Shown: in pieces, positions 51-14,488 of the stretch
Numbering within the stretch: position 1 is the first letter of the stretch
Layout of the letters: every line of letters starts with the position of its first letter
Source: a bacterium
GTDB taxonomy: Bacteria; UBP18; UBA7526
Assembly (NCBI GenBank): GCA_030615855.1
Contig: JAUWYL010000025.1
Span: forward strand, 1 to 15,725
DNA: 15,725 bases
Reading direction: 5' to 3'
The notes under the pieces: model-generated
Seen by the model: only the letters and a program-made list of their open reading frames with translations
The model's database searches: none
Told to the model about the DNA's origin: nothing
Program-made: the position numbers and the translations under genes

Positions 51-65
51 TTTACACCTCCGGTG

Positions 66-193
66 CACGGATGATCACGGATTTCGTACGGATGATCACG
101 GATAAATCGGTGTCAATGCTTAATTATTTATGCTCTCTCGGATGCCAGCGAAGCGCATCCTGTAATCCGTGTTGTTATCTGTGCTAATCTGTG
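66..193. repeat. Repeat-filled ilvB-ilvN spacer (ATCCGTG/ATCTGTG words)
   Basis: A 16-bp unit, ACGGATGATCACGGAT, occurs twice (67-82 and 88-103). GGAT recurs at about 10-bp steps. A hairpin pairs 140-145 (GGATGC) with 155-160 (GCATCC). The right part (165-193) carries ATCCGTG and ATCTGTG words in the opposite orientation to those found at 14391-14428. The repeat starts directly after the ilvB TAG stop. No ORF or promoter is convincing here. Confidence 0.75.
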
Positions 194-1871: not shown

Positions 1872-1917
1872 TATTTCCTCCTCTCAATACACGGGTTATC
1901 AGGGGAAACAGCTGAAG

Positions 1918-2032
1918 GTTACTAACAGTTACTAAGGGTTACTAAACAGTTACTAACAGTTACAGTAACCGATAGTAACAGCGAAGTGTAGTAACCGATA
2001 GTAACAGTTCCGCATTGGCGGAACGTAGTAAC
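1918..2032. repeat. GTTACT/AGTAAC palindromic array in ilvD-ilvB spacer
   Basis: GTTACT occurs at 1918, 1928, 1938 and 1949, near 10-bp steps, followed by GTTACA at 1959. The orientation then flips, with AGTAAC at 1964, 1974, 1990, 2000 and 2027. The turning point is GTTACAGTAAC (1959-1969). A separate perfect hairpin, TTCCGC-ATTG-GCGGAA, sits at 2008-2023 inside the right half. The whole could fold into a long stem in DNA or in the ilvD-ilvB transcript. No coding signal is seen. Confidence 0.85.
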
Positions 2033-2046
2033 ATTGTCCTCCTTAC

Positions 2047-3711
2047 TTACCCCTTTCCTAATATCGCTCCCTTATCCGCTGAACTGACTAGCTGGGCATA
2101 CCTGGCTAAGTAGCCCTTTTTAATCTTGGGCTCCGGAGCCTTCCACTTGGAAAGTCTTTCCTTTATCTCTTCTTCACTTAATTCTATATCTATTTTTTTA
2201 CCGGGAATATTAATACGTATAATATCCCCATCTTTGACTATGGCTATCGGCCCTCCTTTAGCTGCCTCTGGTGAGATATGGCCGATACACGGACCACGCG
2301 TTCCTCCTGAGAACCTCCCATCCGTAATGAGAGCCACATCCTTCTCCCGGCCCATGCCACAGACACTGGAAGTAGGAGTGAGCATCTCCCTCATCCCCGG
2401 ACCTCCTTTGGGACCCTCATACCTTATGACGATTACCTCTCCTTTCTTTATCTTGCCTCCTAAGATGGCCTCCACCGCCTCCTCCTCAGAGTCAAAGACC
2501 CTCGCCGGGCCTTTATGCTTGAGCATCTCCTTAGAGACAGCGATCTGTTTAACCACCCCACTATCCGGGGCAAGGTTTCCTCTTAGAATAGCGATCCCTC
2601 CCTCTTTATGGAGGGGATTTTCAAGGCTTTTTATTACCTCTTTTCTCTTTATCTCCCTTCCCTTAATATTTTCTCCAATTCTTTCACCACTAACTGTTAG
2701 CTCATCGAGGTTCAGAAGATTTTTCTTTGCTAATTCATTCATAAGAGCCGGTATTCCTCCCGCCTCATCTAAGTCCTGCATATGATACTTCCCGGAAGGG
2801 GAAATATCGCATAAATGGGGAGTACGAGCACTGATTTCATCGAAGAGTTCTAGATCTAATTCTATTCCTGCCTCATGAGCAATGGCCGGAAGGTGTAAGA
2901 CGGTATTTGAGGAACAACCCAGAGCCATATCAACAGTAATGGCATTCTCAAAGGCTTCCTTGGTCATTATCTGTGAGGGGTTAATATTTTCTTTAACCAA
3001 TTCCATAATCTGCTTTCCAGCAAGTCTTGCTAATTCTTTTCTCTTATTCGAGACGGCCAGAATGGTCCCATTTCCCGGGAGGGCCATCCCTAAAGCCTCA
3101 GAGAGACAGTTCATACTGTTGGCGGTAAATATTCCCGCACAGCATCCCTCTCCCGGGCAGGCAAGGTCTTCTAACTCCTTTAGCTCCCCTTCTGTCATCT
3201 TACCAATAGCTACCTTTCCCACTCCCTCAAAGACATTGATAAGATCCACATCCTCTCCTTTATACTTGCCAGCGAGCATCGGGCCACCAGAAATAATGAC
3301 GGAAGGAATATTGAGCCGGGCAGCGGCCATGAGCATCCCGGGGGTGATTTTATCGCAGTTGGTAAGTAGTACCAATCCATCGAAGGGGTGAGCAATGGCC
3401 ATGCTCTCCACAGAATCAGCGATGAGTTCTCGAGAGGCTAAGGAATACTTCATCCCCGGATGGTTCATGGCGATACCATCGCAGATTCCAATGATCCCGA
3501 ACTCAATGGGTGTTCCCCCGGCTTCTCTTATCCCTCTCTTTATTTCCTTCGCCAATTTGTCGAGATGGATGTGACCAGGAACGATTTCATTCGCTGCATT
3601 AGCGATGCCAATAATGGGCTTGGCAATATCTCCGTCTTTTAAGCCCAGGGCTTTCATGAGGGACCGGTGGGGCGCTTTCTCATACCCCTTCTTCATAATA
3701 TCGCTTCTCAT
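2047..3711 (-). CDS. ilvD: Dihydroxy-acid dehydratase
   Basis: This 554-residue enzyme dehydrates 2,3-dihydroxy-3-methylbutanoate and its isoleucine-pathway homologue to the 2-oxo acids, the step after IlvC. Signature segments are [10 protein letters not shown] (C119), [15 protein letters not shown] (C190/C191) and the late GRFSGGTRG (463 onward) with the putative catalytic serine. Residues 45-50 read PGHIHL where [2Fe-2S] family members have PCNIHL. The first cluster cysteine is therefore absent, and I infer an E. coli-like oxygen-sensitive [4Fe-4S] enzyme. The ATG at 3711 has AGGAG 7 bases upstream. It is the first gene after the promoter at 3740-3768 and is followed by ilvB across a repeat-rich spacer. 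Confidence 0.97.
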
Positions 3712-3739
3712 CTTCTAGCTCCTATTAGAGTAATTATTT

Positions 3740-3768
3740 AGTATATCTCACAAATTTAATCTTGTCAA
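3740..3768 (-). promoter_or_regulatory. Near-consensus sigma70 promoter for ilvD-ilvB-ilvN
   Basis: On the minus strand a perfect -35 (TTGACA, 3768-3763) is followed after exactly 17 bases by a -10 of TATACT (3745-3740), five of six bases matching consensus. The -35 lies within the last codons of rimI (Asp-Leu-Thr) and the -10 begins just after its TGA. The expected transcript start is near 3733, leaving a leader of only about 20 bases before ilvD, enough for the ribosome binding site but not for a T-box or attenuator. Confidence 0.75.
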
Positions 3769-4212
3769 ATCTTTGTTCCCCATAATTAAAGCATCCTCAC
3801 TTGTATCGCTATAATATCCCTTTTGGATGCCCCCTATTTCGAAACCGAACTTCTTATACAAATTCTGGGCTGGTGAGTTAGAAGGTCTTACTTCTAAAGT
3901 GGCCCTCTTTACCCCCTTCGATACCGCTAATTTTAAAAGAAACCTTATGAGTCTCTCCCCAATCTTCTTTTTCCTATATTCTGGATGGACGGCAAGGTTT
4001 GTAATATGTGCTTCATCAAAGATAAGCCAGAATCCAGCATAGCCCACTACTCTGCCTTCGCTTTTAGCAACCAAGAAGCAGGAAGAATCCCTCTCTTTCA
4101 GTTCTGTCAGGAAGGCCTCCCTCGACCAGGGGGAAGGGAAAGAAGCCTCCTCAATCTCCAGGATCTCGTCAATATTTTCCCTTCTCATATCCTCAATAGT
4201 AATGGGAATCAA
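3748..4212 (-). CDS. rimI: Ribosomal-protein S18-alanine N-acetyltransferase (GNAT)
   Basis: This 154-residue single-domain GNAT acetyltransferase matches RimI, which acetylates the N-terminal alanine of ribosomal protein S18. It has the N-terminal EEASFPSPWS segment typical of RimI, motif A around NLAVHPEYRKKKIGERLI for acetyl-CoA, and motif B near RPSNSPAQNLYKKFGF. The start is TTG at 4212 with AGAGGT 5 bases upstream. A later in-frame ATG would lose part of the first strand and has poor spacing. It follows tsaB in transcription, the common tsaE-tsaB-rimI arrangement, but a 273-base repeat-filled gap separates it from tsaB. The exact substrate is inferred from family and context. Confidence 0.88.
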   Translation of the reverse strand: MIPITIEDMRRENIDEILEIEEASFPSPWSREAFLTELKERDSSCFLVAKSEGRVVGYAGFWLIFDEAHITNLAVHPEYRKKKIGERLIRFLLKLAVSKGVKRATLEVRPSNSPAQNLYKKFGFEIGGIQKGYYSDTSEDALIMGNKDLTRLNL

Positions 4213-4227
4213 GGATTACCTCTATTC

Positions 4228-4468
4228 GGTTAGGGTTAAGGTTACGATGCCCGTTTCGTCTTTCGGTTACGGTTACGTTGTTTTTTGTTGTGAGATCAAG
4301 GAGTGAGTTGTGTGTCGGATTGTGGAGGTGGGGTTGGGTTTTACTACCTCACCCTCACAACTCATCCCCGACCCACTACTTACTACCCATCCTCACCCTA
4401 ATTATACCTTACCTAATCCTTTAACGTTACCGATACGGGCTTCGTTGCCGTAACCTTTAAACCTAACC
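4228..4468. repeat. Long palindromic element, GGTTAC family, copy A
   Basis: This fills most of the 273-base tsaB-rimI spacer. The left end has GGTTA at 4228, 4234 and 4240, then ATGCCCGTTTCG, then GGTTAC at 4264 and 4270. The right end carries CGATACGGGCTTCGTT (4431-4446), CGTAACC and CCTAACC, which read back as the left arm in reverse complement. The middle (about 4285-4410) is a G-rich then C-rich stretch in which TGAGTTGTG (starting near 4303) pairs with CACAACTCA (near 4356). Two long words are shared exactly with the element at 8817-8921. A TATAAT box on the minus strand (4406-4401) has no convincing -35. Confidence 0.8.
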
Positions 4469-4485
4469 TTTTACCCTGAAGCCCT

Positions 4486-5142
4486 TCATTTCCCCATTGG
4501 TGCTCGAACGTAGATAGGTCTTAAGGTAAGGAGTTCTGTCTTTTTACTTCTCCTCAATTTCCTTAATCCCAACTCAGCAATGGATGAAGCATTCGGTAGT
4601 CTTCTTGATTTAGGAGCGAAGACCGCTTTTCCTCCTAATCTCTTCCTTATCAAATCCCCATAAACCTCAATCCCATCCCCCAAAAATATGACTTTGGACT
4701 TTATCTTCTTCAACAACTCACCCGGCTCACAAGCCATATACTTACTAATTCTCTTTCCATTCTTATATAAAGCAGAATAGACCTCTCCTTTTCGAGCATC
4801 CAGAATGGGACAGATCAAATCCTTACAATGGAAGAGATTAAAGGCCAGTCCATCCAGAGTTGGTATCCCAACAATAGGGATATTTAGTCCTTGAGCCAAT
4901 CCCTTAGCAGTGGCAATCCCAATGCGCAAGCCAGTAAAAGAACCAGGCCCTAAAGAGACAGCGATTCCATCTATATCTTTCATAGTCAAAGAAGCATCCT
5001 TCAGCACCCTATCCATAGCAGGCATAAGCCTTGAAGTATGAGTCTCCTTTAAATTTAGAGTATACTCTGCAATCAATCTTTCCTTATCCATCAGAGCAAC
5101 GGAACCAGTCATGGTCGAGGTCTCAATGCCAAGAATTGTCAT
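4486..5142 (-). CDS. tsaB: tRNA t6A biosynthesis protein TsaB
   Basis: This 218-residue ASKHA-fold protein works with TsaD and TsaE to transfer threonylcarbamoyl to A37 of ANN-decoding tRNAs. The N-terminus MTILGIETSTMTGSVAL and the block SLGPGSFTGLRIGIATAKGL (about 63-82) are diagnostic. The second half is shorter and less conserved, as usual for TsaB, which is a scaffold paralogue of TsaD and lacks its metal-binding histidines. The ATG at 5142 fits the family start, although no strong ribosome binding site precedes it and the upstream bases belong to a repeat word. It lies between tsaE and rimI, the classic context. tsaD is not in the window. Confidence 0.95.
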   Translation of the reverse strand: MTILGIETSTMTGSVALMDKERLIAEYTLNLKETHTSRLMPAMDRVLKDASLTMKDIDGIAVSLGPGSFTGLRIGIATAKGLAQGLNIPIVGIPTLDGLAFNLFHCKDLICPILDARKGEVYSALYKNGKRISKYMACEPGELLKKIKSKVIFLGDGIEVYGDLIRKRLGGKAVFAPKSRRLPNASSIAELGLRKLRRSKKTELLTLRPIYVRAPMGK

Positions 5143-5145
5143 ATC

Positions 5146-5230
5146 GTTTACCGTTGAGCGGTGCGTTTTACTTGCCCCGCTGGTGAATAACTATTATTCA
5201 ATCTGCCCGCCCTTCGGGCTGTTTACCGTT
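5146..5230. repeat. Hairpin-rich tsaE-tsaB spacer
   Basis: GTTTACCGTT occurs exactly at 5146-5155 and 5221-5230, bracketing the spacer. Between them are two hairpins: TGAATAA-CTA-TTATTCA (5184-5200) and GCCCG-CCCTT-CGGGC (5205-5219). The second copy of the bracketing word includes the tsaE stop codon (TAA, 5231-5229). Nothing coding is seen. Confidence 0.75.
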
Positions 5231-5684
5231 AACCGTAAAGCTTTTTTATTATATTCTGATAACGCTTCCCCTTGGGAATAAACCCTATCTTTCTTCTATT
5301 CCCATCAATAATTTCCAGATTTATGATTAGAACCTCTTTTGGCAAGAGTTTCTTAATCTTCTCTGCCCACTCAATGATGGTCACTCCCTCTCCATAGAGG
5401 TATTCCTCATAGCCCAGATCATAGACCTCTTTAAGATTATCTATCCTATAAAGATCAATATGATAGACAGGTAATCTTCCCTTATGCTCCTTAATCAAGG
5501 TAAAGGAAGGACTGGTTACATAATCCTTTTTCTTCACTCCTAAGCCCTCTGCTAAACCCTGAGTCAGGGTAGTCTTCCCACTCCCCAACTTCCCAATCAG
5601 AGCAACAACATCTCCCGGTCGAAGTAGTTTACCTGTCTTCTTTCCCAGTCTTATTGTCTCTTTTGCGCTCTTCGTCTCTATAAT
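5229..5684 (-). CDS. tsaE: tRNA t6A biosynthesis ATPase TsaE, probable ATT start
   Basis: TsaE is the ATPase that drives the TsaB-TsaD complex in t6A formation. The frame shows KLLRPGDVVALIGKLGSGKTT (Walker A, P-loop), SPSFTLIKEH, YHIDLYR (Walker B-like) and IIEWAEK, all typical. The only conventional start in frame is a TTG at 5588, inside the P-loop, which would destroy the protein. No ATG, GTG or TTG exists between the upstream in-frame stop (near 5735) and that point, yet the frame encodes a normal TsaE N-terminus. The best start is ATT at 5684, 8 bases after an AGGAG located at the end of the TPR gene, giving 151 residues, the usual length. The product is certain; the start is inferred. 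Confidence 0.9.
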   Translation of the reverse strand: MIETKSAKETIRLGKKTGKLLRPGDVVALIGKLGSGKTTLTQGLAEGLGVKKKDYVTSPSFTLIKEHKGRLPVYHIDLYRIDNLKEVYDLGYEEYLYGEGVTIIEWAEKIKKLLPKEVLIINLEIIDGNRRKIGFIPKGKRYQNIIKKLYG

Positions 5685-5689
5685 CTTAT

Positions 5690-6484
5690 TTACTCCTGCT
5701 TGGCTTTTAGTCTTTGAATACGTCTCTGGGCATTTTTAACTTCTTCACTCTCAGGATAGATTTCTATAACCTTTTGATAAGCCTGCATTGCCTGATCATA
5801 CATTTTTAATTTTTCATACCATTTCCCAATCTGATATTGATTGCGGCTAGCGTATTCTTCCACAGAATAATTATCTATTACTTTTTGACTTTCCACTATT
5901 GCCAGTTTATATTTCTTCTGTTCCGCATAGAGGACAGCAATGCCAGACTGGGCCAGAGCAGCAGCTTCACTTCCAGGGTAGTCGGCTATAACCTTTCGGA
6001 ATTTCTCTCGGGCCTGTTTATCTCGTCCCAGTTTACCATAGCACATTCCAATCGTAGCCTGAACGAATGCTTTAAAGTCACCTTTGGAGAGTTTATCAAC
6101 AGATTTTTCAAGTTGCTTAAGTGCTCGCCGGTGTTTATCTAAGTCCAAGTAAGCTATTCCCAGACTAACTGAGGCAAGTGCAAGGGCACGTCTTTCTGGA
6201 CAGTTTTTAATAACTTCGCGATACACTTTTATTGCCTGCTTTGGCTTGTTCAATTCCCTATAACATAATCCAATCTGAATTTGTACAGCATAGACGGGAA
6301 GTAACAGGCGGTCACGGAGTTCTTGATATGCCTCCATTGCTTCTTTGTATTTTTCTTCTTTATATAGCTTGTTGGCTTTTCTGGAAAGTTCTTTAGTCGG
6401 AGATAAGTCCTCAGCAGAAGTGGCTATTACAAATCCTATCATTAAAATTGTCACTATGCTACTTTTTACTAATCCTCTGCCCAT
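5690..6484 (-). CDS. Exported tetratricopeptide-repeat protein
   Basis: This 264-residue protein begins with a signal peptide: a charged start, a hydrophobic stretch SSIVTILMIGFVIA, and a probable cleavage after TSA near residue 24. The rest is TPR helices with recurring patterns such as KLYKEEKYKEAMEAYQ, KQAIKVYREVIKNCPE, KQAREKFRKVIADYPGSEAA and QAMQAYQKVIEIYPES. The final repeats resemble the YbgF/BamD-like family that acts in the periplasm on envelope assembly, but no specific function can be assigned. The ATG at 6484 has AAGGAG 9 bases upstream. It ends just before tsaE, whose ribosome binding site lies in its last codons. An exported protein is out of place in this cytoplasmic housekeeping unit. 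Confidence 0.85.
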   Translation of the reverse strand: MGRGLVKSSIVTILMIGFVIATSAEDLSPTKELSRKANKLYKEEKYKEAMEAYQELRDRLLLPVYAVQIQIGLCYRELNKPKQAIKVYREVIKNCPERRALALASVSLGIAYLDLDKHRRALKQLEKSVDKLSKGDFKAFVQATIGMCYGKLGRDKQAREKFRKVIADYPGSEAAALAQSGIAVLYAEQKKYKLAIVESQKVIDNYSVEEYASRNQYQIGKWYEKLKMYDQAMQAYQKVIEIYPESEEVKNAQRRIQRLKAKQE

Positions 6485-6537
6485 TTTTCTATGCTCCTTT
6501 CATTTTTATTTAGATTTTTGTTTTCCCTCAAGAACAG

Positions 6538-6565
6538 AATTTAATACTTTCAGATTAACTGGCAA
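6538..6565 (-). promoter_or_regulatory. Possible weak promoter upstream of the TPR gene
   Basis: TTGCCA (6565-6560) and TAAATT (6543-6538) on the minus strand are separated by 16 bases and match consensus at five and four of six positions. The site lies in the 133-base gap between the CBS gene and the TPR gene. The rest of that gap is AT-rich, with ATTCGCGT words (6600-6607, 6610-6617) touching the CBS stop codon. This is a low-confidence call from motif matching only. Confidence 0.3.
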
Positions 6566-6617
6566 ACTATCCAGTATTCGCAACCATTTGCATTTTTTGA
6601 TTCGCGTATATTCGCGT

Positions 6618-7079
6618 CTAGGCTTCGCCTTTAGCAATGGCCCTCACCACATCCGCCTTTCCTACAATGCCTACGATCTTATTCTTCTCCATAACAGGTA
6701 GAAGATACTTTCTCTCTGTGGACATTAGAGTTGCGATATCCTCGATATAGGTATCCGGTGTTATGGTGATTACTTCCTTGGTCATTGCTTCGGAGACCTT
6801 TTGGCCTAAGATCCTGCCCATCTCCTCCTCAAACCTCTTGGGGCTCTCTAAATAGATTACTCCTTCCAAAAGCTGGACCACAGTAGGAATATGAACCTTC
6901 TTATCTCTGATGATTAAATCCGCCTCAGTCACGATTCCCTTTAATTTATTGTTTTCATCCACCACCGGTGCTCCGCTTATTCTATGATTTACCAGAAACT
7001 TCGCCACCTCCTTTATCGTCATATCATCTTTCACTGTTAATACTTCTTTAGTCATAATATCCTTTGCCTGTACCACCAT
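6618..7079 (-). CDS. Protein with two CBS domains
   Basis: This small protein of 153 residues consists almost entirely of a CBS pair (Bateman module). The first CBS starts AKDIMTKEVLTVKDDMTIKE and includes HRISGAPVVDENNKLKGIVT. The second includes VSEAMTKEVITITPDTYIED and KYLLPVMEKNKIVGIVGKADVV. Such modules bind adenine nucleotides (AMP, ATP, NADH, sometimes c-di-AMP) and act as sensors; the ligand and partner here are unknown. The start chosen is ATG at 7079, 8 bases after AAGGAG. In-frame GTG (7088) and ATG (7085) also exist but lie too close to the ribosome binding site. The gene is packed directly against nnr, whose TGA is at 7087-7085, indicating translational coupling. Confidence 0.9.
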   Translation of the reverse strand: MVVQAKDIMTKEVLTVKDDMTIKEVAKFLVNHRISGAPVVDENNKLKGIVTEADLIIRDKKVHIPTVVQLLEGVIYLESPKRFEEEMGRILGQKVSEAMTKEVITITPDTYIEDIATLMSTERKYLLPVMEKNKIVGIVGKADVVRAIAKGEA

Positions 7080-7084
7080 TTTCA

Positions 7085-8764
7085 TCACTCCTTTCTTAGG
7101 CTTTTGAAGGCCTGGGGTAGTTTCTCCAAAACATCAGAGGCAACGAGAGACTCCTCTCCCTTCTCTTGGGCAGCCAAATCCCCTGCCAGACCATGGAGAT
7201 AGACTCCTGTCTTCGCTGCTTCTAAAGGTTCCTTTCTCTGGGCTAAGAAGGAACCGATCATCCCCGTCAGAACATCCCCCACTCCCGCAGAGGCCATCCC
7301 TGGATTTCCCGTGGGATTGATATAGGTGTTCCCTCCTGGATCAGAGATGACTGTCCTTGCTCCTTTCAAAACAACGATCACTTTGTATCTTTTGGCAAAG
7401 TCGCCTGCAATCTTTATTCTATTCTCCTGTACCTCTTTTACTGTCTTACTGATGAGCCTTGCCATCTCACCAGGATGGGGAGTAATTATGCGGAATGCGG
7501 AATGCGGAATGCGAGAATGTAGGAGAGAGAGGTGACCAACGAGGGCATTAAGGGCATCGGCGTCAATGACCATGGAGAGAGAAATCTTTTTTATTAGATT
7601 CCTTACCAGTTGTTGAGTCTCTTTATCGGTAGATAGCCCAGGTCCAAGAGCAAGAGCATCTGCCTTTTTAGAAAATTCTATGATCTCTTTTTCTGCTTTC
7701 AAAGAAAGGGTTTTCTTTTTTGTCTCTGGTAGGGGTAAGGTCATCCCTTCAGTTAATTTAATCTCCATGATTTCATTCAGACTCTCTGGGATGCCCAGGG
7801 TGACTAAACCTACTCCACTTCTTAGAGCCCCAAAGCAGAGAGAGGCCGCCTGAGAAGTTAAGGTTGCAGCACCAGTCATACCCACACTTCCCGCAATGAC
7901 CAAGAGGTGACCATAGGTTCCTTTATGAGTATCTGGCCTCCTCGGCAAAAAATAAGCGGAAATCTCTTCTTTAGCAATTAGGTTTACTTTAATCCTTTCA
8001 TCCTCTAAGAATTTCTTGGGGAATCCGATGCGAGCTACCTCTAATTTTCCCACATATTCTGCTCCGGGATAGACGACCAACCCAATCTTGGGAAGACCGA
8101 AGGTTATGGTCAAATCTGCCCTTATTGCTTCTCCGGGGACCCTGCCTGTGCTTCCTTCCACTCCAGAGGGAATGTCCACAGAGACAATAGGTTTCTTCAG
8201 GGTATTGATAAACTTAATGATTTTTGCTTCTATTCCTTTAGGTGCTCCCTTTATTCCTGTTCCCAGAATAGCATCAACGATTAAATCTGACTTTTTAATT
8301 TCTTGTTTAAGTCTCTCTAATTTTCGAGAAGTATCTATCTCTATAATTTCTATCCACCTCATCGGTGGATCCGCCAAAGAGGCGGATTCTTTTAGCACTC
8401 TTTTCAGATTGGTCTTCGGATCTTTCTTGAGTTCTTCCTTCTTTGTTAATAAGAATACCTTTACCCTTGCCCCGTTGGAAGTAATCCGACCCCGAAGGGG
8501 ACGGATGCCTCGCCTCTGGCGAGGACTTCCAATGGGGTTTGCTTTTTCTTTTGCTAAAAGACGAGCCACTACCAGTCCATCTCCACCATTATTCCCCTTG
8601 CCACAGAAGATAGAGACCCTTTTCCCTTTAAGAGGTGCGTAGCAGGATTTGATTACTCTGGCTACTGCTCTTCCCGCATTCTCCATAAGTTCTATAGAAG
8701 GAATTCCAGAGGCAATGGTCTTCCTATCAATCTCCCTCATCTCTTCTGCAGTGACAATCTTCAT
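7085..8764 (-). CDS. nnr: Bifunctional NAD(P)HX epimerase / ADP-dependent dehydratase with repeat-derived insertions
   Basis: This 559-residue protein repairs damaged NAD(P)H hydrates. The N-terminal YjeF-type epimerase domain (about 1-260) has CGKGNNGGDGLVVAR (54-68), DAILGTG (164-170) and VDIPSGVEGSTG (196-207). The C-terminal ribokinase-like dehydratase (about 265-555) has VIDADALNAL (399-408), ITPHPGEMARL (427-437), VVLKGARTVI (464-473) and NPGMASAGVGDVLTGMIGSF (487-506). Three segments look foreign and coincide with DNA repeats: residues 76-97, about 127-138 and about 416-426. The frame stays open through all of them, the catalytic motifs are intact, and the extra residues lie in loops, so the enzyme is probably active. 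The ATG at 8764 has only a G-rich, weak ribosome binding site. Confidence 0.95.
   Translation of the reverse strand: MKIVTAEEMREIDRKTIASGIPSIELMENAGRAVARVIKSCYAPLKGKRVSIFCGKGNNGGDGLVVARLLAKEKANPIGSPRQRRGIRPLRGRITSNGARVKVFLLTKKEELKKDPKTNLKRVLKESASLADPPMRWIEIIEIDTSRKLERLKQEIKKSDLIVDAILGTGIKGAPKGIEAKIIKFINTLKKPIVSVDIPSGVEGSTGRVPGEAIRADLTITFGLPKIGLVVYPGAEYVGKLEVARIGFPKKFLEDERIKVNLIAKEEISAYFLPRRPDTHKGTYGHLLVIAGSVGMTGAATLTSQAASLCFGALRSGVGLVTLGIPESLNEIMEIKLTEGMTLPLPETKKKTLSLKAEKEIIEFSKKADALALGPGLSTDKETQQLVRNLIKKISLSMVIDADALNALVGHLSLLHSRIPHSAFRIITPHPGEMARLISKTVKEVQENRIKIAGDFAKRYKVIVVLKGARTVISDPGGNTYINPTGNPGMASAGVGDVLTGMIGSFLAQRKEPLEAAKTGVYLHGLAGDLAAQEKGEESLVASDVLEKLPQAFKSLRKE
7488..7515. repeat. ATGCGGA heptamer tandem inside nnr
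   Basis: ATGCGGA is repeated exactly at 7488-7494, 7495-7501 and 7502-7508, followed by a degraded fourth unit. On the coding strand it reads as CATTCCGCATTCCGCAT and gives the peptide SRIPHSAFRI just before the ITPHPGEM motif of nnr. Because seven is not a multiple of three, successive units are translated in different frames. Confidence 0.8.
8352..8387. repeat. Double-hairpin element inside nnr
   Basis: Two perfect 7-bp stems lie side by side and share two bases: ATCCACC-TCATC-GGTGGAT (8352-8370) and ATCCGCC-AAAGA-GGCGGAT (8369-8387). They encode about 12 residues (ESASLADPPMRW) in the epimerase domain of nnr. The stretch falls between two helical parts where family members usually have a short link. 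Confidence 0.8.
8470..8537. repeat. 68-bp palindromic element inserted in frame in nnr
   Basis: The outer inverted arms CCCCGTTGGAAGT (8470-8482) and ACTTCCAATGGGG (8525-8537) match at 12 of 13 positions. Inside are two hairpins: ATCCG/CGGAT capping CCCC-GAA-GGGG (about 8484-8506), and CCTCGCC-TCT-GGCGAGG (about 8508-8524). The element could fold as a three-armed structure. It encodes about 22 residues (PIGSPRQRRGIRPLRGRITS with flanking Asn) between KEKA and GARVKVF of the epimerase domain. It lacks any coding capacity of its own. Confidence 0.88.
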
Positions 8765-8816
8765 CGTTTCCCCCGAAAAGAAGTTAATAAGTTGACTAGT
8801 TGATAAAGTAACATTT

Positions 8817-8921
8817 GGTTATGGTCAGGGTTACGATGCCCGTTTCGGCTACGTTATTCGGTTACGTAACCGTAACCCCTAAACGATACGGGCTTCGTTA
8901 CCGTTACCTTTTGACCTAACC
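8817..8921. repeat. Palindromic element, GGTTAC family, copy B
   Basis: This occupies most of the 156-base acpS-nnr spacer. GGTTACGATGCCCGTTTCG (8829-8847) is identical over 19 bases to 4240-4258, and CGATACGGGCTTCGTT (8884-8899) is identical over 16 bases to 4431-4446. The centre is the perfect palindrome CGGTTACGTAACCG (8859-8872). Arms end in GGTTA on the left and CCTAACC on the right. The right end runs into the acpS stop codon. The remaining 8765-8816 shows no feature. Confidence 0.85.
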
Positions 8922-9334
8922 TATGGCTTGTTAACTTGTTTCCTTGTTAACTTGTTACTCTTCTTTATTGCTATGGCTTGAGCAATAGCATACTCTTTGG
9001 TATGGGACATAGATACCAGGACTTCGTCTATCTCTAATCTCTTGGCAATCTCTTTAGTCTTTCCCACTAATCTAACTTCTGGCTTTCCATCATTATTATG
9101 AATTACCTGAATATCCTTCCATCTTACCCCTTTTCTCCATCCCGTTCCCAGGGTCTTCATCACCGCTTCCTTGGTAGCGAAATGGGCTCCATAGAACTGG
9201 TATCTATCCTTTTTCTTCTCTCCCCGAGCAATCTCTTCCTTAGTAAAGACTCTTTCTAAGAACCTACCATTATTATCGATGGCCCTTTTGATTCTTTCTA
9301 TTTTAACAAGGTCTATTCCCACACCCTTAATCAT
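8921..9334 (-). CDS. acpS: Holo-acyl-carrier-protein synthase
   Basis: This 137-residue enzyme transfers 4'-phosphopantetheine from CoA to a serine of apo-ACP, activating it for fatty acid synthesis. MIKGVGIDLVKIERI carries the Mg-binding aspartate (D8), and FYGAHFATKEAVMKTLGTGW holds the conserved glutamate and the ACP/CoA-contacting residues. VSMSHTKEYAIAQAIA is the usual C-terminal strand. The ATG at 9334 has AGGAG 6 bases upstream. The last dozen residues (SNKLTRKQVNKP) go beyond the family end and are encoded by a tandem octamer. It heads the acpS-nnr unit after the terminator of the upstream gene. Confidence 0.95.
   Translation of the reverse strand: MIKGVGIDLVKIERIKRAIDNNGRFLERVFTKEEIARGEKKKDRYQFYGAHFATKEAVMKTLGTGWRKGVRWKDIQVIHNNDGKPEVRLVGKTKEIAKRLEIDEVLVSMSHTKEYAIAQAIAIKKSNKLTRKQVNKP
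8927..8958. repeat. Four tandem CTTGTTAA-type octamers at the acpS 3' end
   Basis: The units are CTTGTTAA (8927-8934), CTTGTTTC (8935-8942), CTTGTTAA (8943-8950) and CTTGTTAC (8951-8958). They supply the last codons of acpS before CCA TAG. The 8-bp unit means each copy is read in a different frame. Confidence 0.88.
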
Positions 9335-9351
9335 CTCATTCTCCTCATTTC

Positions 9352-9384
9352 AGTATACTATATTTTTCTTTAAGAAGCAAACAA
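9352..9384 (-). promoter_or_regulatory. Probable promoter for acpS
   Basis: The minus strand reads TATAGTATACT at 9362-9352. TATAGT (9362-9357) lies 16 bases after TTGTTT (9384-9379), and TATACT (9357-9352) lies 17 bases after TTGCTT (9380-9375). Either pairing gives an acceptable sigma70 promoter with a start only about 10 bases before the acpS ATG. It sits immediately after the terminator, as expected for a new transcription unit. Confidence 0.5.
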
Positions 9385-9412
9385 AAAGCCTATCTTAAAA
9401 AAGACAGGCTTT
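9378..9412 (-). terminator. Intrinsic terminator after the nagB-like gene
   Basis: On the minus strand a 12-bp stem (AAAGCCTGTCTT at 9412-9401, AAGATAGGCTTT at 9396-9385, one G-U pair) with a TTTT loop is followed by TTTTGTT. It lies 44 bases after the nagB-like stop. There is no T-run on the plus strand, so it is directional and ends the yvcK-nagB transcript. Confidence 0.85.
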
Positions 9413-9456
9413 GAGTCAGGTTAAAGTGAAACAAAGACTACGCGGATTTTAAGGAG

Positions 9457-10419
9457 TTATCTCAGATCGCTTAGATAAATCTCTTTAGAAGACAGGATAC
9501 TCTCTTTGCCTAAGATATCCTTTGCCGCTAGCTCATCAACAATATAGATCATCTTTCCTTTCTTAGCATACTCTTGAGAAAAAGAGATAGGTAGATTGCA
9601 AGTTACTGGCCCCAGAAGAGAACCAGCGATGGTCTCTCTCTTTCTCTCCCCATTGGCTAAAAGGAGGATCAGGGGGGCCTCATAGACCAACCCGGCTCCC
9701 ATAGAGACGGCATAGTGGGGGGATTCCTCTACACTGGAGAAATGGCCATCCTTCACTGCATTCTGAATGGTATTCTCATCTAACTTAACCAGAAGCATCC
9801 TCTCTTCCAAAGGGATGCCACACTCATGGAAGCCGATGTGTCCCTTTTCTCCCACTCCTACTACCTGAAGGTCGATTCCCCCATAGGATTTAATCAATTC
9901 CTCATAACCATCCAGGATCTTTTCCTTAATCCAGGAGAGATAATCGCTGGGGGTAGTATCTGGAATCGAGACCGCTTTCCCAAAATCGGTTCCTTTTAAT
10001 CCGTAATAGGAAGGATCGACTTTGTGGCTTTCCAATTCGTGAATTAATCTCTCCTCTTTTACCTCAGTACCTTTCGGGATAAAGGTCTTAGCAAAAGGTG
10101 GCGTGAGTTTCTGAAAGAGTTGCTCAGACATAAAATGGACGTAGCTCTCCGGATGTCTGACCCTCTCTTCCGGGGTAGCCCCGGGTAATCCGACATATTC
10201 ATCGAGGTTGAAGGAGACTATCCTCTGGGCATCGAAGAGATGCTGACTGCTGGCGATAATATCATAGAGGCCGGTAGGAGTGCTTCCCGTAGCCAACCCC
10301 AGGACTATTTTTTCTTTCTCTTCACTGGGGATAAAACTCAAGATCTGCCCCAATACGATCTGGGCAGCCACCTGGCTCATCTGTTTCTTATCTTTAGTAA
10401 TATAGACTTGAAATCCCAT
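9457..10419 (-). CDS. nagB: Divergent glucosamine-6-phosphate deaminase (NagB family)
   Basis: NagB converts glucosamine-6-phosphate to fructose-6-phosphate and ammonia. This 320-residue protein has the phosphate-binding LGLATGSTPTGLY (40-52), the base Asp in FNLDEYVGL (D73) and the ring-opening motif GEKGHIGFHECG (190-201) with His194 and Glu199. It is about 55 residues longer than E. coli NagB, mainly through extra sequence at about 131-175. In that motif the Asp/Asn before GH is Lys192, and the usual FNEPG is FHECG, so activity or substrate may differ. The ATG at 10419 has GAGAGG 5 bases upstream. It starts 18 bases after yvcK and ends at a terminator. The family is sure; the deaminase reaction is less so. 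Confidence 0.8.
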   Translation of the reverse strand: MGFQVYITKDKKQMSQVAAQIVLGQILSFIPSEEKEKIVLGLATGSTPTGLYDIIASSQHLFDAQRIVSFNLDEYVGLPGATPEERVRHPESYVHFMSEQLFQKLTPPFAKTFIPKGTEVKEERLIHELESHKVDPSYYGLKGTDFGKAVSIPDTTPSDYLSWIKEKILDGYEELIKSYGGIDLQVVGVGEKGHIGFHECGIPLEERMLLVKLDENTIQNAVKDGHFSSVEESPHYAVSMGAGLVYEAPLILLLANGERKRETIAGSLLGPVTCNLPISFSQEYAKKGKMIYIVDELAAKDILGKESILSSKEIYLSDLR

Positions 10420-10437
10420 TTCTACCTCTCTTGACTT

Positions 10438-11736
10438 TCATTCCTTTGTTCCCCTACCCTTGGCTTCCATGAAGATCCTCGTAATGGCTCGGGCCAACTT
10501 ATCTGGCTCATGGCGCAGGTAGTCCTTGGTGCTCATGAGATTGGCCTTAGCTATTTTTAATCCCATCTTTTCTATCTTCTCCTCATCCACCACTACCTGG
10601 AAGGCCTTCTCCTCTTCATACTTTTTGGCAAGTTCTGGAGGACCCTGGCTGGTATTTACCAGAACATAGTCCAGAAACTTACTCTTAGTATGCCTATAGA
10701 TGGCCTCTATATGGTCTGAGGCGGAGTAATTGTCCGTCTCTCCCGCCTGGGTCATGATGTTGCAGACGTAGATCTTAATGGCCCTTGAGTTCTTTATGGC
10801 CTCTATCATCCCTTTTGTTAAAAGGTTAGGCATCACACTGGTATAGAGAGAGCCCGGGCCGATAATAATTACCTCTGCTTCCTTTATGGCCTTCAGGGCC
10901 TCGGGATAGGAAGGAGCATCAGAAGGCAAAAGGGAGAGCTTCTCTATCTCACCTCCCGCCTCAGGAATCTCTGCCTCCCCTTTTATTACTCTCCCGTCTT
11001 TCATCTTTGCCTGGAGAGAAACGTCGCTTAGGGAAGAGGGAAGGACCCGACCACGAATGGCCAATACCTTGCTGGTAGCCCTCACGGCGCTGGCAAAGTT
11101 CTTGGTCACTTCACGCATTGCGGTGATAAAGAGATTCCCAAAGGAGTGACCCTCCAGTTCGCTGGGACCTTTGAATCTATATTGAAAGAGATCCTCCATC
11201 AGGGGCTCGGTATCTGCCAAGGCCACCAGGCAATTCCTGATATCCCCTGGGGGAGGCATGCCGAAGTCTTTTCTTAATCTTCCCGAGCTTCCTCCGGAAT
11301 CAGCCACAGTGACGATGGCCGTTAGATTAGAAGTATACTCCTTTATTCCCTTTAAGAGGCTGGAGAGGCCATGCCCCCCTCCAATGCCTACCACCCTCGG
11401 GCCCCTTCGCAGTTGCCTTTTCTCATAGACCACATCAACCAAATCCTTCTTTTCCTGGGGAGCGAAAAGGGAGTAGATGGATTTTAACAATCGTTGCAGG
11501 CCCAAGGCAATACAGATTACGCCTATAAAGAAAATAAGCATAACTACCGGCCTGGTTACCAGGGCCTCAGAGAGAAAGATTCTTTCAAAACCTTTTACAA
11601 ATTGGGGAGGCCTGGGAAGACGCAATAGGCCACCCAATCCCGTTCCAAGAAAGATAATCCCGACAAGTAAAAGGATTATCCACCTCTTAATGAGCATCCC
11701 GGGATAGAACCACTTCAATATCTTCTTTAATTTCAC
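10438..11736 (-). CDS. yvcK: YvcK/GlmR-type UDP-GlcNAc-responsive regulator with N-terminal membrane anchor
   Basis: The C-terminal 320 residues are a CofD-like Rossmann domain: GIGGGHG (117-123), TVADSGGSSGRLR (143-155), PPGDIRN (162-168) and GPGSLYTSVMPNL. In Bacillus and Listeria this family binds UDP-GlcNAc and supports growth on gluconeogenic carbon and cell-wall precursor synthesis. Here about 110 residues precede the domain, with two hydrophobic segments (about 19-39 and 63-84) that should form a membrane hairpin, giving 432 residues against about 317 in B. subtilis. The start is GTG at 11736 with GGAGG 9 bases upstream. It is coupled to the nagB-like gene. The role as envelope regulator is inferred from the family. 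Confidence 0.9.
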   Translation of the reverse strand: MKLKKILKWFYPGMLIKRWIILLLVGIIFLGTGLGGLLRLPRPPQFVKGFERIFLSEALVTRPVVMLIFFIGVICIALGLQRLLKSIYSLFAPQEKKDLVDVVYEKRQLRRGPRVVGIGGGHGLSSLLKGIKEYTSNLTAIVTVADSGGSSGRLRKDFGMPPPGDIRNCLVALADTEPLMEDLFQYRFKGPSELEGHSFGNLFITAMREVTKNFASAVRATSKVLAIRGRVLPSSLSDVSLQAKMKDGRVIKGEAEIPEAGGEIEKLSLLPSDAPSYPEALKAIKEAEVIIIGPGSLYTSVMPNLLTKGMIEAIKNSRAIKIYVCNIMTQAGETDNYSASDHIEAIYRHTKSKFLDYVLVNTSQGPPELAKKYEEEKAFQVVVDEEKIEKMGLKIAKANLMSTKDYLRHEPDKLARAITRIFMEAKGRGTKE

Positions 11737-11754
11737 CTTATCAGACCTCCTTCA

Positions 11755-11916
11755 GTTAACAGCAGTTAATAACGGTTAATAAGGATGCCTTTCGCTAACG
11801 CTCAAGAACCTTGTTTCTTCGCTTCGCTCAGAAATAACAGTTGCGTTAAAGGTAACCGATATTAACCCCTGCCTGCCGGCAGGCAAGGATATTAACAGTT
11901 TTTAACCGATTTTAAC
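11755..11916. repeat. GTTAA/TTAAC palindromic array in pdxJ-yvcK spacer
   Basis: GTTAA occurs at 11755, 11765 and 11775, exactly 10 bp apart, and TTAAC at 11862, 11892, 11902 and 11912, again in 10-bp steps with a gap. The orientation flips between the halves. Inserted between them are the dispersed repeat at 11804-11840 and the perfect 16-bp palindrome TGCCTGCCGGCAGGCA (11870-11885). Confidence 0.85.
11804..11840 (+). repeat. Dispersed CTTCGCTTCGCTCA repeat, copy 1
   Basis: This 37-bp sequence starts AAGAACCTTGTTT and ends TCGCTTCGCTCAGAAATAACAG. It matches the reverse complement of 12805-12839 except for small indels. The core GAGCGAAGCGAA resembles a short repeat seen in intergenic DNA of many environmental bacteria (from general knowledge, not searched). 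Confidence 0.8.
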
Positions 11917-11920
11917 CTAT

Positions 11921-12640
11921 CTATCTTCGCCTTTTGATAAGATTAAGCATCTCTTTGACCGCTTGCTTCATCCCCACCATTACTGCTCGGGCAATAATGT
12001 TATGGCCGATATTTAACTCCTCTATCTCGGGAATCTTGACTATTCGAGGGACATTCCGATAGGTAAGGCCGTGACCAGCACTTACCGCAAGGCCTAACTC
12101 TCGCGCTTCTTTGGCTGCTCTTGAAATGCGGGTGAGTTCTTTACCTTTCTTCTTCTTGCTTTTCGCTTCTGCATAGCATCCGGTATGTAACTCCACCATC
12201 TGAGCCCCTGTCTTAGTAGAGGTCTTGACCTGTTTTAGATCAGGGTCTATGAATAGACTCACCATGATATCTTTCTTCTTCAATCTCTTGACCGCCTGAG
12301 AAATCTTCCTCAAGTTTCCCGTTACATCCAATCCCCCTTCAGTAGTCAGTTCTTGTCTTTTCTCTGGTACCAGGGTAGCCTGATCCGGTTTTATTCTGCA
12401 GGCGATCTTTAGGATTTCTTCTGTTACCGCCATCTCTAAGTTGAGCCTCTTGACCTTTTTCCTTAGGAGTCTTACATCCCTATCCTGGATGTGGCGTCGA
12501 TCCTCTCTCAAATGAACGATAATAGAGTCTGCTCCTGCTCTCTGGGCCAAGAGGGCGGCCTCTAAGGGGTCTGGCTCTGGGACCCCTCTGGCCTGCCTTA
12601 CCGTAGCCACATGGTCGACATTTACTCCTAACCTAACCAT
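11921..12640 (-). CDS. pdxJ: Pyridoxine 5'-phosphate synthase
   Basis: PdxJ condenses 1-deoxyxylulose-5-phosphate with the PdxA product to make pyridoxine 5'-phosphate in the DXP-dependent vitamin B6 route. This 239-residue TIM barrel opens with MVRLGVNVDHVATVRQARG, the family signature, followed by DPLEAALLAQRAGADSIIVH, HLREDRRHIQDRDV and EMAVTEEIL. Later blocks VELHTGCYAEA, VSAGHGLTYRNV and ELNIGHNIIARAVMVG hold the phosphate-binding loops and catalytic residues. Length is normal. The ATG at 12640 is fixed by the conserved N-terminus although the ribosome binding site is weak. Placement near glmM and acpS genes is common in several phyla. pdxA is not present here. Confidence 0.96.
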   Translation of the reverse strand: MVRLGVNVDHVATVRQARGVPEPDPLEAALLAQRAGADSIIVHLREDRRHIQDRDVRLLRKKVKRLNLEMAVTEEILKIACRIKPDQATLVPEKRQELTTEGGLDVTGNLRKISQAVKRLKKKDIMVSLFIDPDLKQVKTSTKTGAQMVELHTGCYAEAKSKKKKGKELTRISRAAKEARELGLAVSAGHGLTYRNVPRIVKIPEIEELNIGHNIIARAVMVGMKQAVKEMLNLIKRRR

Positions 12641-12691
12641 CTCTTTACATTCCCAATTATGTGAAATTCGTCTTTCGTTTATCGGTTACCT

Positions 12692-12724
12692 GCCTGCCAT
12701 CGCTACGCTCAGGCGTTAGCAGGC
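12692..12724. repeat. GCCTGC...GCAGGC hairpin
   Basis: GCCTGC (12692-12697) pairs with GCAGGC (12719-12724) around a loop containing CGCTACGCTCAGGCGTTAGC. It opens the 372-base pdxJ-glmM spacer, which holds this hairpin, the ATCAGA array (12749-12905) and a GC-rich hairpin cluster (12935-12990). No gene was found in the spacer. Confidence 0.6.
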
Positions 12725-12748
12725 GGGCGAGGCTCGTGTAATTAGAGT

Positions 12749-12905
12749 ATCAGATTACCAGAATACCAGATGGAGAACTTAGGTATCAGAGGGTCAGATT
12801 AAATCTGTTATTTTGAGCGAAGCGAAAAACAAGGTTCTTCGATGAAATCGGAGGTTCTTATTCTGACCTTCTGACCATCTCATTCTGATACTCTGATGTT
12901 CTGAT
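12749..12905. repeat. ATCAGA/TCTGAT palindromic array with nested dispersed repeat
   Basis: Five RYCAGA-type words lie at 12749, 12757, 12765, 12785 and 12793 (ATCAGA, ACCAGA, ACCAGA, ATCAGA, GTCAGA). Five reverse-complement words lie at 12862, 12870, 12884, 12892 and 12900 (TCTGAC twice, TCTGAT three times). Most steps are exactly 8 bp. Between the halves sits the second copy of the dispersed repeat (12805-12839), in opposite orientation to copy 1. Confidence 0.88.
12805..12839 (-). repeat. Dispersed CTTCGCTTCGCTCA repeat, copy 2
   Basis: This 35-bp sequence, read on the minus strand, matches 11804-11840 apart from two small indels. It lies at the centre of the ATCAGA array. Confidence 0.8.
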
Positions 12906-12934
12906 AGTCTATAAAAACGAGCTGCGCAACCGCC

Positions 12935-12990
12935 CCTCGCCGTTGGCTCGGGATACTTCACTTCGGCGAGGTATCCTGAACGAAGTGAAG
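12935..12990. repeat. Cluster of mutually exclusive hairpins before pdxJ
   Basis: Three perfect stems overlap: CCTCGCCG/CGGCGAGG (12935-12942, 12964-12971), GGATAC/GTATCC (12951-12956, 12971-12976) and CTTCACTTCG/CGAAGTGAAG (12956-12965, 12981-12990). Only some can form together. The cluster follows the glmM stop by about 20 bases. There is no T-run, so it is not a standard terminator. Confidence 0.7.
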
Positions 12991-13012
12991 GGCAACCGTA
13001 TGACGTAACCTG

Positions 13013-14359
13013 TTAACTTAGTTTCTTTTTAATGACTTTGCTTATGTCTCGGGCAATGGTCTCAATCTCTTCTCTCTCTCTTCCCTCAACCATTACCCTG
13101 ATAAAAGGCTCGGTGCCTGAAGGACGGACTAAAATTCTCCCGCCACTACCGAGTTTCTTCTCTGCCCTCTCAATCTCTTTCTTAATCTCGGGAACTTTTA
13201 ATGGGCTTTTCTTCTTCTTGACCCTGACGTTGATTAGAACCTGAGGGAATTTTTCCATAACCTGGGCCAGTTCAGAAAGAGGCTTATTCCTTCTCTTCAT
13301 GATGGAGAGTATCCGGAGGGTAGTGATTATTCCATCTCCCGTCGTATTATGCTCTAAGAAGATGATGTGTCCTGACTGCTCCCCACCCAAAGTTAGATTC
13401 TCTCTTAGCATTTTATCCAGAACGTATCTGTCACCAACCGGGGTTCTCAGAACTTCTCCGCCCATCCTTTCTAATGCTAAATCCAGTCCCAGATTACTCA
13501 TCACTGTGGCCACCAGGGTCTTTTTAGGAAGTCTCTCCATCCTTATCAGCTCCTGGGCGCAGAAAGCCATCACCTGATCCCCATCGACCACCTCTCCCTT
13601 CTCATCTATGGGGATTACTCGATCCCCATCCCCATCAAGTGATATCCCAACATCTGCCTTCTCTTTTAACACCCTCTTTCGGGTTACTTCGGGATAAAGT
13701 GGGCCGCAGTTTTCATTAATATTTGTTCCATCTGACTTGTTATTCAAAACGATCACTTCTGCCCCGAGTTCCCTTAAAATCTGGGGTGCTACTTGGTAGG
13801 TAGCACCATTTGCACAATCGACTACTATCCTATATCCTCTGAGGTTCAAACCTCGATGGAAAGATTTTAGGACAAACCCCTCGTATCTTTTGGGAGCATC
13901 GTCAATAGGGCAGATCCTACCGATCCTCTTTCCCGTGGGGCGGGGTACTTTTTTCTTCCTGAAGAGGAGTTCTTCAATCTTCTTCTCATAATCATCGGAG
14001 AGCTTAAAGCCCCTTCGGGAGAAGAACTTAATTCCATTATCATAATATGGGTTATGGGAAGCGGAGATGACAATCCCAGCATCGGCCTTTAGAGATTTTG
14101 TGAGATAGGCGATGGCGGGGGTGGGAAGGATGCCCAATTTAAAAACATCTCCCCCTGCAGAGGATATTCCACTAGATATGGCTTCTTCAAGCATGGGACC
14201 GGAAAGACGGGTATCGCGACCGATGGTCAGGGAGGCCTTCTCCGTATCCTTCTTGAAGAAAGTAGCAGCTGCCTTCCCTAATTGAAAGGCGAGTTCTGGA
14301 GTCATGGGATGGAGATTGGCTACTCCTCTTATTCCATCGGTACCGAAAAGTCTACGCAA
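13013..14359 (-). CDS. glmM: Phosphoglucosamine mutase
   Basis: GlmM converts glucosamine-6-phosphate to glucosamine-1-phosphate on the way to UDP-GlcNAc. RRLFGTDGIRG opens the protein; GIVISASHNPYYDNGIKFF holds the phosphorylated serine (residue 101 from this start); DGDGDR binds Mg2+; GGEQSGHII is the sugar loop; RPSGTEPFIRVMVEG is the phosphate loop. I chose TTG at 14359, with GTGAGG 6 bases upstream, giving 448 residues. In-frame GTG codons at 14371 and 14401 would add residues with no ribosome binding site, and the 14401 start lies in repeat DNA. It follows cdaR, and GlmM is known to bind and inhibit CdaA in Firmicutes. Its stop lies in an AGTTAAC repeat word. Confidence 0.95.
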   Translation of the reverse strand: MRRLFGTDGIRGVANLHPMTPELAFQLGKAAATFFKKDTEKASLTIGRDTRLSGPMLEEAISSGISSAGGDVFKLGILPTPAIAYLTKSLKADAGIVISASHNPYYDNGIKFFSRRGFKLSDDYEKKIEELLFRKKKVPRPTGKRIGRICPIDDAPKRYEGFVLKSFHRGLNLRGYRIVVDCANGATYQVAPQILRELGAEVIVLNNKSDGTNINENCGPLYPEVTRKRVLKEKADVGISLDGDGDRVIPIDEKGEVVDGDQVMAFCAQELIRMERLPKKTLVATVMSNLGLDLALERMGGEVLRTPVGDRYVLDKMLRENLTLGGEQSGHIIFLEHNTTGDGIITTLRILSIMKRRNKPLSELAQVMEKFPQVLINVRVKKKKSPLKVPEIKKEIERAEKKLGSGGRILVRPSGTEPFIRVMVEGREREEIETIARDISKVIKKKLS

Positions 14360-14388
14360 GTTAGGCCTCACTTTCGTTCGGCAATCTT

Positions 14389-14488
14389 CACAGATTAGCA
14401 CAGATTGACTAAACTGATTAGCACGGATTTAGAAATGAGAATCAGTGCTAATCCGTATCTTTTAATCTGTGCCCATCCGTGTGACTAT
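14389..14488. repeat. GATTAGCACGGAT palindrome in cdaR-glmM spacer
   Basis: Outer arms CACAGATTA (14389-14397) and TAATCTGTG (14463-14471) are perfect inverted repeats. Inner arms GATTAGCACGGAT (14416-14428) and ATCAGTGCTAATC (14441-14453) match at 12 of 13. GATT words on the left and AATC words on the right recur at about 10-bp steps. The same words occur in the ilvB-ilvN spacer. Confidence 0.85.

Follow-up and report, generated by a model that had tools for sequence, protein, structure and literature searches.

Array hairpins between the genes of a UBP18 bacterium as probable gene-less derivatives of mobile elements akin to the 23S rRNA intervening sequence

The spacers considered here lie on contig JAUWYL010000025.1 of assembly GCA_030615855.1, from a bacterium of the UBP18 lineage (UBA7526); the window is the whole stretch of 15,725 nucleotides that was analysed. 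In these spacers, a short word is repeated in one orientation and then in reverse complement, such that the spacer forms a hairpin. We consider it probable that they are non-autonomous copies, devoid of a gene, of a kind of mobile element akin to the intervening sequences (IVS) found in 23S rRNA. In its complete form, such an element consists of an array of direct words, a gene for the 23S rRNA intervening-sequence protein (S23, hitherto known chiefly from insertions in ribosomal RNA) in the hairpin loop, and an array of inverted words, with the arms built from a single degenerate word that recurs every 7, 8, or 10 bp. Loss of the gene from such an element would leave the pure array hairpins that are found in the window.

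A sequence-only reading of the window had proposed that five of its spacers follow a single design in which the word varies. Each of the five shows more self-complementarity than any of 300 dinucleotide shuffles, the comparison being made spacer by spacer (p about 0.003 each), and the design is not confined to the window. From the source genome (G000, 93.6% complete, compared here with draft metagenome-assembled genomes), 758 kb of 1.375 Mb was sampled in stretches, with genes assigned by a home-made codon model, and 304 spacers of 60–400 bp were scanned with 19 shuffles each, using 304 coding stretches of equal length as controls. The hairpin score exceeds all 19 shuffles in 133 of the 304 spacers (13 of 304 coding controls), periodicity does so in 167 (19 coding controls), and both do so in 98, with no coding control among the 304 passing both. 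This genome-wide comparison with shuffles, named beforehand as a possible refutation, thus left the design standing: array hairpins built on dozens of words occupy about a third of the testable intergenic gaps in G000. Nearly all spacers separate co-directional genes, and some arrays are nested inside the loops of others. A search of the window against Rfam gave no match.

The steps proposed for the individual spacers fared unevenly. Judged on periodicity alone, the 10-bp steps of the spacers at 1918 and 11755 and the 8-bp step of that at 12749 stood (p≤0.007), whereas the 10-bp step at 14389 did not (p=0.12) and the 6-bp step at 8817 found no support, the best lag there being 13 (p=0.07). Predicted RNA folding z scores are −7.0 (1918), −4.7 (8817), −2.2 (11755), −1.7 (12749), and −8.0 (14389), the values for 11755 and 12749 being computed minus the outermost units. 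Across the genome sample, the lags are mainly 7 (57 spacers), 8 (39), 10 (35), and 14 (15). Because 7- and 8-bp steps are commoner than 10, helical phasing is rejected, and the suggestion that proteins bind along one face of the DNA is not supported. The words read in G000 spacers include GTTACTANCR, GTTAATANCR, and CACNGATTAG at 10 bp; TATCAGA, AAAGTAGG, GTGAGTTG, and AAGTTAAC at 8 bp; and GGTTTAC, TTACAGTAACCAG, ATTTTGC, and AGCCTGA at 7 or 14 bp. The elements of the window are as follows.

63..190, no strand assigned: CACGGAT words and their inverse, seen in the sequence and not significant alone; probably a decayed member of the 14389 family.
1913..2033, minus strand: GTTACTA element without an open reading frame (ORF); four direct GTTACTANCR units at a 10-bp step, a tip, and inverted units; GC mini-hairpins (CGAAGTG; TTCCGC..GCGGAA) break up one of the arms.
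4228..4475, no strand assigned: composite with outer GGTTACG...GCCCGTTTCG arms (about 4228-4282 and 4418-4475; hairpin p=0.003) and a GTGAGT 8-bp array nested in the loop (about 4295-4400).
5150..5240, no strand assigned: partial array of the words GTTTACCG/GTTAACCG; hairpin and period not significant alone.
8817..8912, no strand assigned: GGTTACG...GCCCGTTTCG element without an ORF; self-complementary, with the fold given above.
11755..11916, no strand assigned: GTTAATA/GTTAAAA element without an ORF; 10-bp step, with a GAAACAAGGTTCTT module and a GC hairpin nested inside.
12741..12906, plus strand: ATCAGA element without an ORF; 8-bp step, five units and then inverted units, with a GAGCGAAGCG...AAGGTTCTT module in the loop (12803-12858).
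14389..14488, no strand assigned: CACAGATTAG element with a step of 10 bp; of the hairpins folded, it has the strongest predicted fold.

Relatives of these hairpins carry a gene. In the source genome itself (C35:26600-27174) and at an Omnitrophota locus, the loop of a GTTACTA array contains an ORF. The ORF belongs to the S23 family (PF05635/TIGR02436), a four-helix bundle whose nearest solved structure is 2gsc, and S23 is the sole gene seen in loops. PF05635 has 11 matches in G000, some of them partial, and 44 in its phylum, which was sampled as six genomes and is positive in all six; the family is present in 38 of 58 Omnitrophota and 26 of 150 Pseudomonadota genomes and in 0 of 14 control genomes. 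S23 genes are flanked by word arrays upstream and their inverse downstream, and the word differs for most genes. With shuffles, other genes, and windows taken 800 bp away within the S23 loci as controls, we find inverted arms (p≤0.02) at 18 of 27 S23 genes in the same phylum, 19 of 27 in Omnitrophota, 19 of 24 in Pseudomonadota, and 14 of 14 in an Omnitrophota subfamily set found with a single S23 protein. The corresponding counts are 4 of 120 for genes of the source genome and 2 of 181 for the shifted windows (0/74, 1/53, and 1/54). The flanks of mismatched S23 loci make a weak control because their words are common to other S23 loci. Arm steps at S23 loci are mostly 7 in Omnitrophota and Pseudomonadota and are 7 and 8 in the phylum of the source genome, and a copy of S23 on a Calothrix plasmid is flanked by GGGTGTA heptamers on one side and by inverted GGGTGTA heptamers on the opposite side. 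All S23 loci that were read, like the elements of the window, lie between protein or tRNA genes and not in a 23S or 16S rRNA helix, which identifies them as an intergenic form rather than the classical rRNA IVS. As a side observation, several S23 genes are stop-broken or truncated (L272, L250, L257, L307, and others), as expected of copies on the way to losing the gene.

The arms of the window elements match those of S23-bearing loci. The closest correspondence is that of the ATCAGA element, whose arms are nearly identical to those of L255 on both sides (alignment scores 43+45 = 88, compared with ≤26 for shuffles). The 1913..2033 element likewise matches both sides of L272, which lies on contig C35 of the source genome (sum 57; shuffles ≤25). 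A second locus of that genome, C30:13741, bears S23 and matches both outer arms of the 4228..4475 composite (28+38, sum 66; shuffle sums 20–25) and both arms of 8817..8912 (37+25, sum 62; shuffles 16–21). The partial array at 5150..5240 resembles the arms of S23-bearing L269 (40; shuffles ≤22). For 11755..11916 the best S23 locus is again L272 (44; shuffles ≤25), and the element is a cousin of the GTTACTA family; a GTTAATA-type arm also accompanies a truncated S23 gene at L275. In the genome sample, 9-mer sharing with S23 arms is higher than in every one of 19 shuffles for 71 of the 98 phased hairpins.

Word and protein change together. Among 90 S23 loci, with orthologous loci excluded, mean arm cosine is 0.49 for pairs with S23 similarity above 0.7, 0.24 at 0.5–0.7, and flat at 0.13–0.14 below 0.5, and the Mantel correlation between word and protein is 0.25, compared with ≤0.12 in 500 permutations. 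The GTTACTA word is paired with one S23 subfamily in two phyla. Within that subfamily, GGTTACTA/GGTTACC is kept where the S23 proteins are 71–73% identical, GGTTAC/GGTTAG-like words appear at 52–55%, and GGGATAGTAGG-like words appear at 44–46%. A single junction with flanks 81–88% identical has been reused by unrelated S23 elements: in three species it holds three words, with S23 proteins that are 30–35% identical or have no blastp match to one another.

The words are dispersed, and each has a fixed polarity. The spacer at 1911-2040 matches about 20 other loci of G000; GTTACTANCRGTTACTA occurs 25 times in G000 and 36 times in G004, a genome of another genus, and is present in 7 of 193 Omnitrophota genomes, while the reversed control pattern has zero occurrences in the genomes searched. 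In a count of fixed words, the word of the first half is constant for GTTACTA (13/13), GGTTACG (7/7), CACGGAT (5/5), and ATCAGA (15/16, one being mixed). GTTACTA elements also share their layout across loci, with four direct units, a GGTTAC...GCAACC tip, and inverted units, and their GC mini-hairpins sit at one point of the word and in one arm only.

These regularities bear on the proposal that no mobile element is involved and that micro-repeats arise and become inverted on the spot, through slippage and template switching during replication. The arms are indeed degenerate tandem repeats whose unit number varies, some arrays (G009 C133) contain long regular runs of units, and strains of Coxiella differ by one heptamer (PMC4990558); slippage very likely adjusts the number of units. 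As the origin of the arrays, which is how the sequence-only reading had offered it, template switching is disfavoured and in our estimation very improbable: the same words recur at many loci in a single polarity, the architecture and the mini-hairpin positions are common to copies, S23 genes occupy the loops of relatives, and arrays are cleanly absent from junctions in sister species.

The content of the GTTACTA mini-hairpins varies from copy to copy (1981-2025 in the window; L032, L144, L153, and L157), with TCCCGAT..ATCGGGA, TTCCGC..GCGGAA, and CCTGCCTGCCGGCAGGCAGG among the forms seen, as if the mini-hairpins were themselves mobile. Between the 1913-2033 element and L149, a 34-bp mini-hairpin has been gained within the element. 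Arrays are also nested within other arrays, at the centre and not in the arms (C30:68854-69113, C30:218808-219184, and C30:247494-247714 of G000, and 4228-4475 of the window), as if hairpin loops were preferred targets.

Comparison with two congeneric sister species, G001 and G002, which are syntenic with G000 and whose genes are 88% identical, shows that the arrays turn over; these are comparisons between species, not strains. It had been asked whether other strains use the same word at the same locus, and in the sister species they do not. Among 158 orthologous spacer pairs, phased-hairpin spacers are homologous over half their length in 0 of 27 comparisons, with 17 showing unrelated sequence (typically an array of another word), 6 showing absence, and 4 sharing part of the sequence; long spacers without an array are homologous in 29 of 56. 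The window elements follow suit. The 4228..4475 junction carries other arrays in both sister species, and the 8817..8912 junction (8765-8920) has three words in three species, with a CACTGATTAG array in G001 and a AAGTTAAT array in G002. The junction of 11755..11916 is empty in G001 (4 bp), that of 12741..12906 is occupied by a CCAGTTTTCC array in G001 and measures 25 bp in G002, and 14389..14488 is absent in G002. The spacers of a genome have, in effect, been rewritten by S23-type elements between sister species.

Such turnover is difficult to reconcile with the hairpins being host-selected signals for RNA processing or stability in operons, with S23 genes as passengers or regulators. That explanation would account for the strong predicted RNA folds, the placement between co-directional genes, the sense orientation of the S23 ORFs, and the one element whose conservation exceeds that of the gene beside it. 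At a given junction, however, sister species differ in whether an element is present, in its word, and in its length, many junctions are element-free in a sister, and gene-less GTTACTA copies stand in both orientations (8 to 6), and we regard host selection as an unlikely source of the arrays. The S23 ORFs themselves share the strand of the adjacent genes (63 to 5 for the downstream and 71 to 3 for the upstream gene). Taken with the gene-less copies that face both ways, this suggests that elements insert in either direction, after which a functional gene either persists in sense copies only or is lost from antisense ones.

The dispersal, inverted repeats, gene-less copies, and presence/absence differences are also those of ordinary miniature inverted-repeat transposable elements (MITEs), that is, remnants left by deletion within a classical transposon bounded by terminal inverted repeats, in which case S23 would be cargo. 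We find this improbable. No consistent target-site duplication was seen by eye, the arms consist of repeated words where a transposon would have unique terminal repeats, and the loops carry S23 only; no Y1 (RAYT) transposase (PF01797) is found in G000 at its 93.6% completeness, other transposase families not having been searched for. Reverse transcriptase (PF00078) is lacking in all six genomes of the phylum. If the element moves, it would therefore do so by host replication and recombination, by an enzyme outside the searches, or by an activity yet to be described.

Several observations weigh against descent from S23-bearing mobile elements. No element of the window carries an S23 gene itself, and significant inverted arms are missing from roughly 20 to 33% of the S23 genes, some of these genes being truncated or at contig ends. 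For the 14389..14488 family, the S23 loci compared include no S23-bearing partner; its best likeness, to L256/L273, is weak (31; shuffles 20–28) and lies in an outer layer of the nesting. It is the pairs with similarity above 0.5 that produce the correlation of word with protein, and the cross-phylum correlation taken alone is small (r = 0.08). At 33 junctions where an element is present in one species and absent in another, there is no consistent target-site duplication or insertion motif, judged by eye at boundaries blurred by divergence. Finally, the 1913-2033 element, between ilvB and ilvD, is 96.7% identical in G004, although the adjoining ilvD is only 84.9% identical (67% at third positions); it is absent from G002, and G001 has other content at the site. 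An element that outconserves its neighbour gene in this way could reflect functional selection or recent transfer.

If the spacers are nonetheless copies of S23 elements, how they move and why they are tolerated can be considered. The pairing of word and protein is compatible with S23 binding the word of its own element, as DNA or RNA, and being needed for its spread, such that gene-less copies would be moved in trans; we see the chances of this as evenly balanced. By analogy with the rRNA IVS, the arms might pair in the transcript and RNase III might cut the element out, which would make insertion between the genes of an operon tolerable, a scheme that we put forward tentatively. An RNA-processing role for the hairpin, as the sequence-only reading had suggested, may still hold: RNase III excision is known for the rRNA relatives (PMC4990558), and S23 ORFs run almost always in sense. 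More broadly, and with the balance tipped slightly toward doubt, these could be a widespread class of minimal mobile element that encodes neither transposase nor reverse transcriptase and whose sole gene product, S23, recognises its own word in DNA or RNA and spreads full and gene-less copies between genes. The word would then change along with the protein as a recognition code, and many of the bacterial heptamer repeats that lack an explanation would be traces of such elements.

The closest known system is the rRNA IVS itself. In Coxiella, the 23S rRNA IVS has an S23p ORF, complementary borders, and tandem GACAGAT heptamers, is excised by RNase III, and has been called a selfish element (PMC4990558). 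The elements described here share with the IVS of Coxiella and Leptospira a sense S23/IVP gene in a stem-loop of complementary borders, as well as the tandem heptamers beside the ORF (Coxiella), a patchy distribution, and suspected horizontal transfer (PMC4990558). They differ in that the rRNA IVS sit in rRNA helices, whereas these lie between protein genes, comprise dozens of word families, and are mostly gene-less. PF05635 also occurs in rRNA gene insertions of CPR bacteria (PMC11270868). S23/IVP proteins are annotated as a four-helix bundle with no known function despite over 25 years of rRNA IVS study (PMC4990558), and the one relative of solved structure is a pentamer according to the literature. 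The association of S23 with inverted, family-specific word arrays in four phyla provides the protein with a likely partner, the word, and a likely context, a mobile element, and the function of both IVS and S23 becomes directly testable.

Short intergenic words have been described before. TAACTGA heptamer direct repeats in Beggiatoaceae and cyanobacteria, along with long simple sequence repeats, were reported without an associated gene or mechanism (PMC4679880). Like the arrays here, they are intergenic, most commonly heptameric, scattered in phylogeny, and suspected of horizontal transfer; unlike them, they form 169 direct sets plus one indirect repeat, rather than inverted arms around S23 genes (PMC4679880). 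We predict that the heptamer repeats of Beggiatoaceae and cyanobacteria are relics of S23 elements, which offers a possible explanation for intergenic heptamer and octamer repeats. The earlier remark that the spacers fit no insertion sequence, repetitive extragenic palindrome (REP), or CRISPR plan holds. The elements resemble REP sequences and their mosaics (BIME) with RAYT, and MITEs, in being short, palindromic, dispersed intergenic repeats that are non-autonomous, but their arms are word arrays, with no consistent duplication seen by eye and no Y1 transposase in G000. CRISPR arrays have identical direct repeats and unique spacers, whereas here the words are degenerate, there are no spacers, and the second half is inverted. 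Avd of diversity-generating retroelements is a structural relative of S23 (4DWL compared with 2GSC; PMC10053308), but the six genomes of the phylum lack the reverse transcriptase of those systems. The open-access literature yielded no previous description of S23 elements between genes or of gene-less copies, most subscription journals and preprints being outside the coverage; what is new here is the intergenic spread, the diversity of words, the pairing of word and protein, and the gene-less copies.

Two candidate occurrences of the words elsewhere were set aside. Viral contigs contain 42 single matches to GTTACTANCRGTTACTA, which we judge to be about chance level; in 5 of these, some of which fall within coding sequence, an inverted unit is close by, and GATTAGCAC has 2 viral matches. 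A match in Granulosicoccaceae lies in coding sequence and also looks like chance.

Other small repeats were seen alongside the arrays. In G001, a hairpin CCCGTTAGAAAT...ATTTCTAACGGG is inserted at L063:12620-12762 with an apparent GTCTAC duplication, and the site is empty in G002; this hairpin is of a type distinct from the word arrays. A related hairpin, CCCCGTTGGAAGT, which both G001 and G002 lack, lies in frame at 8475-8537 of the window within an ORF (7085-8764) resembling NAD(P)H-hydrate epimerase. The same ORF contains the heptamer GCGGAAT three times in frame (7489-7517). A module GAGCGAAGCG...AACAAGGTTCTT recurs in loops and spacers in both orientations, at 11800-11835 and 12803-12858 of the window and at L063:5322-5404, where the copy lies near a CTCTCGGATGCCAGCGAAGCGCATCC-like module.

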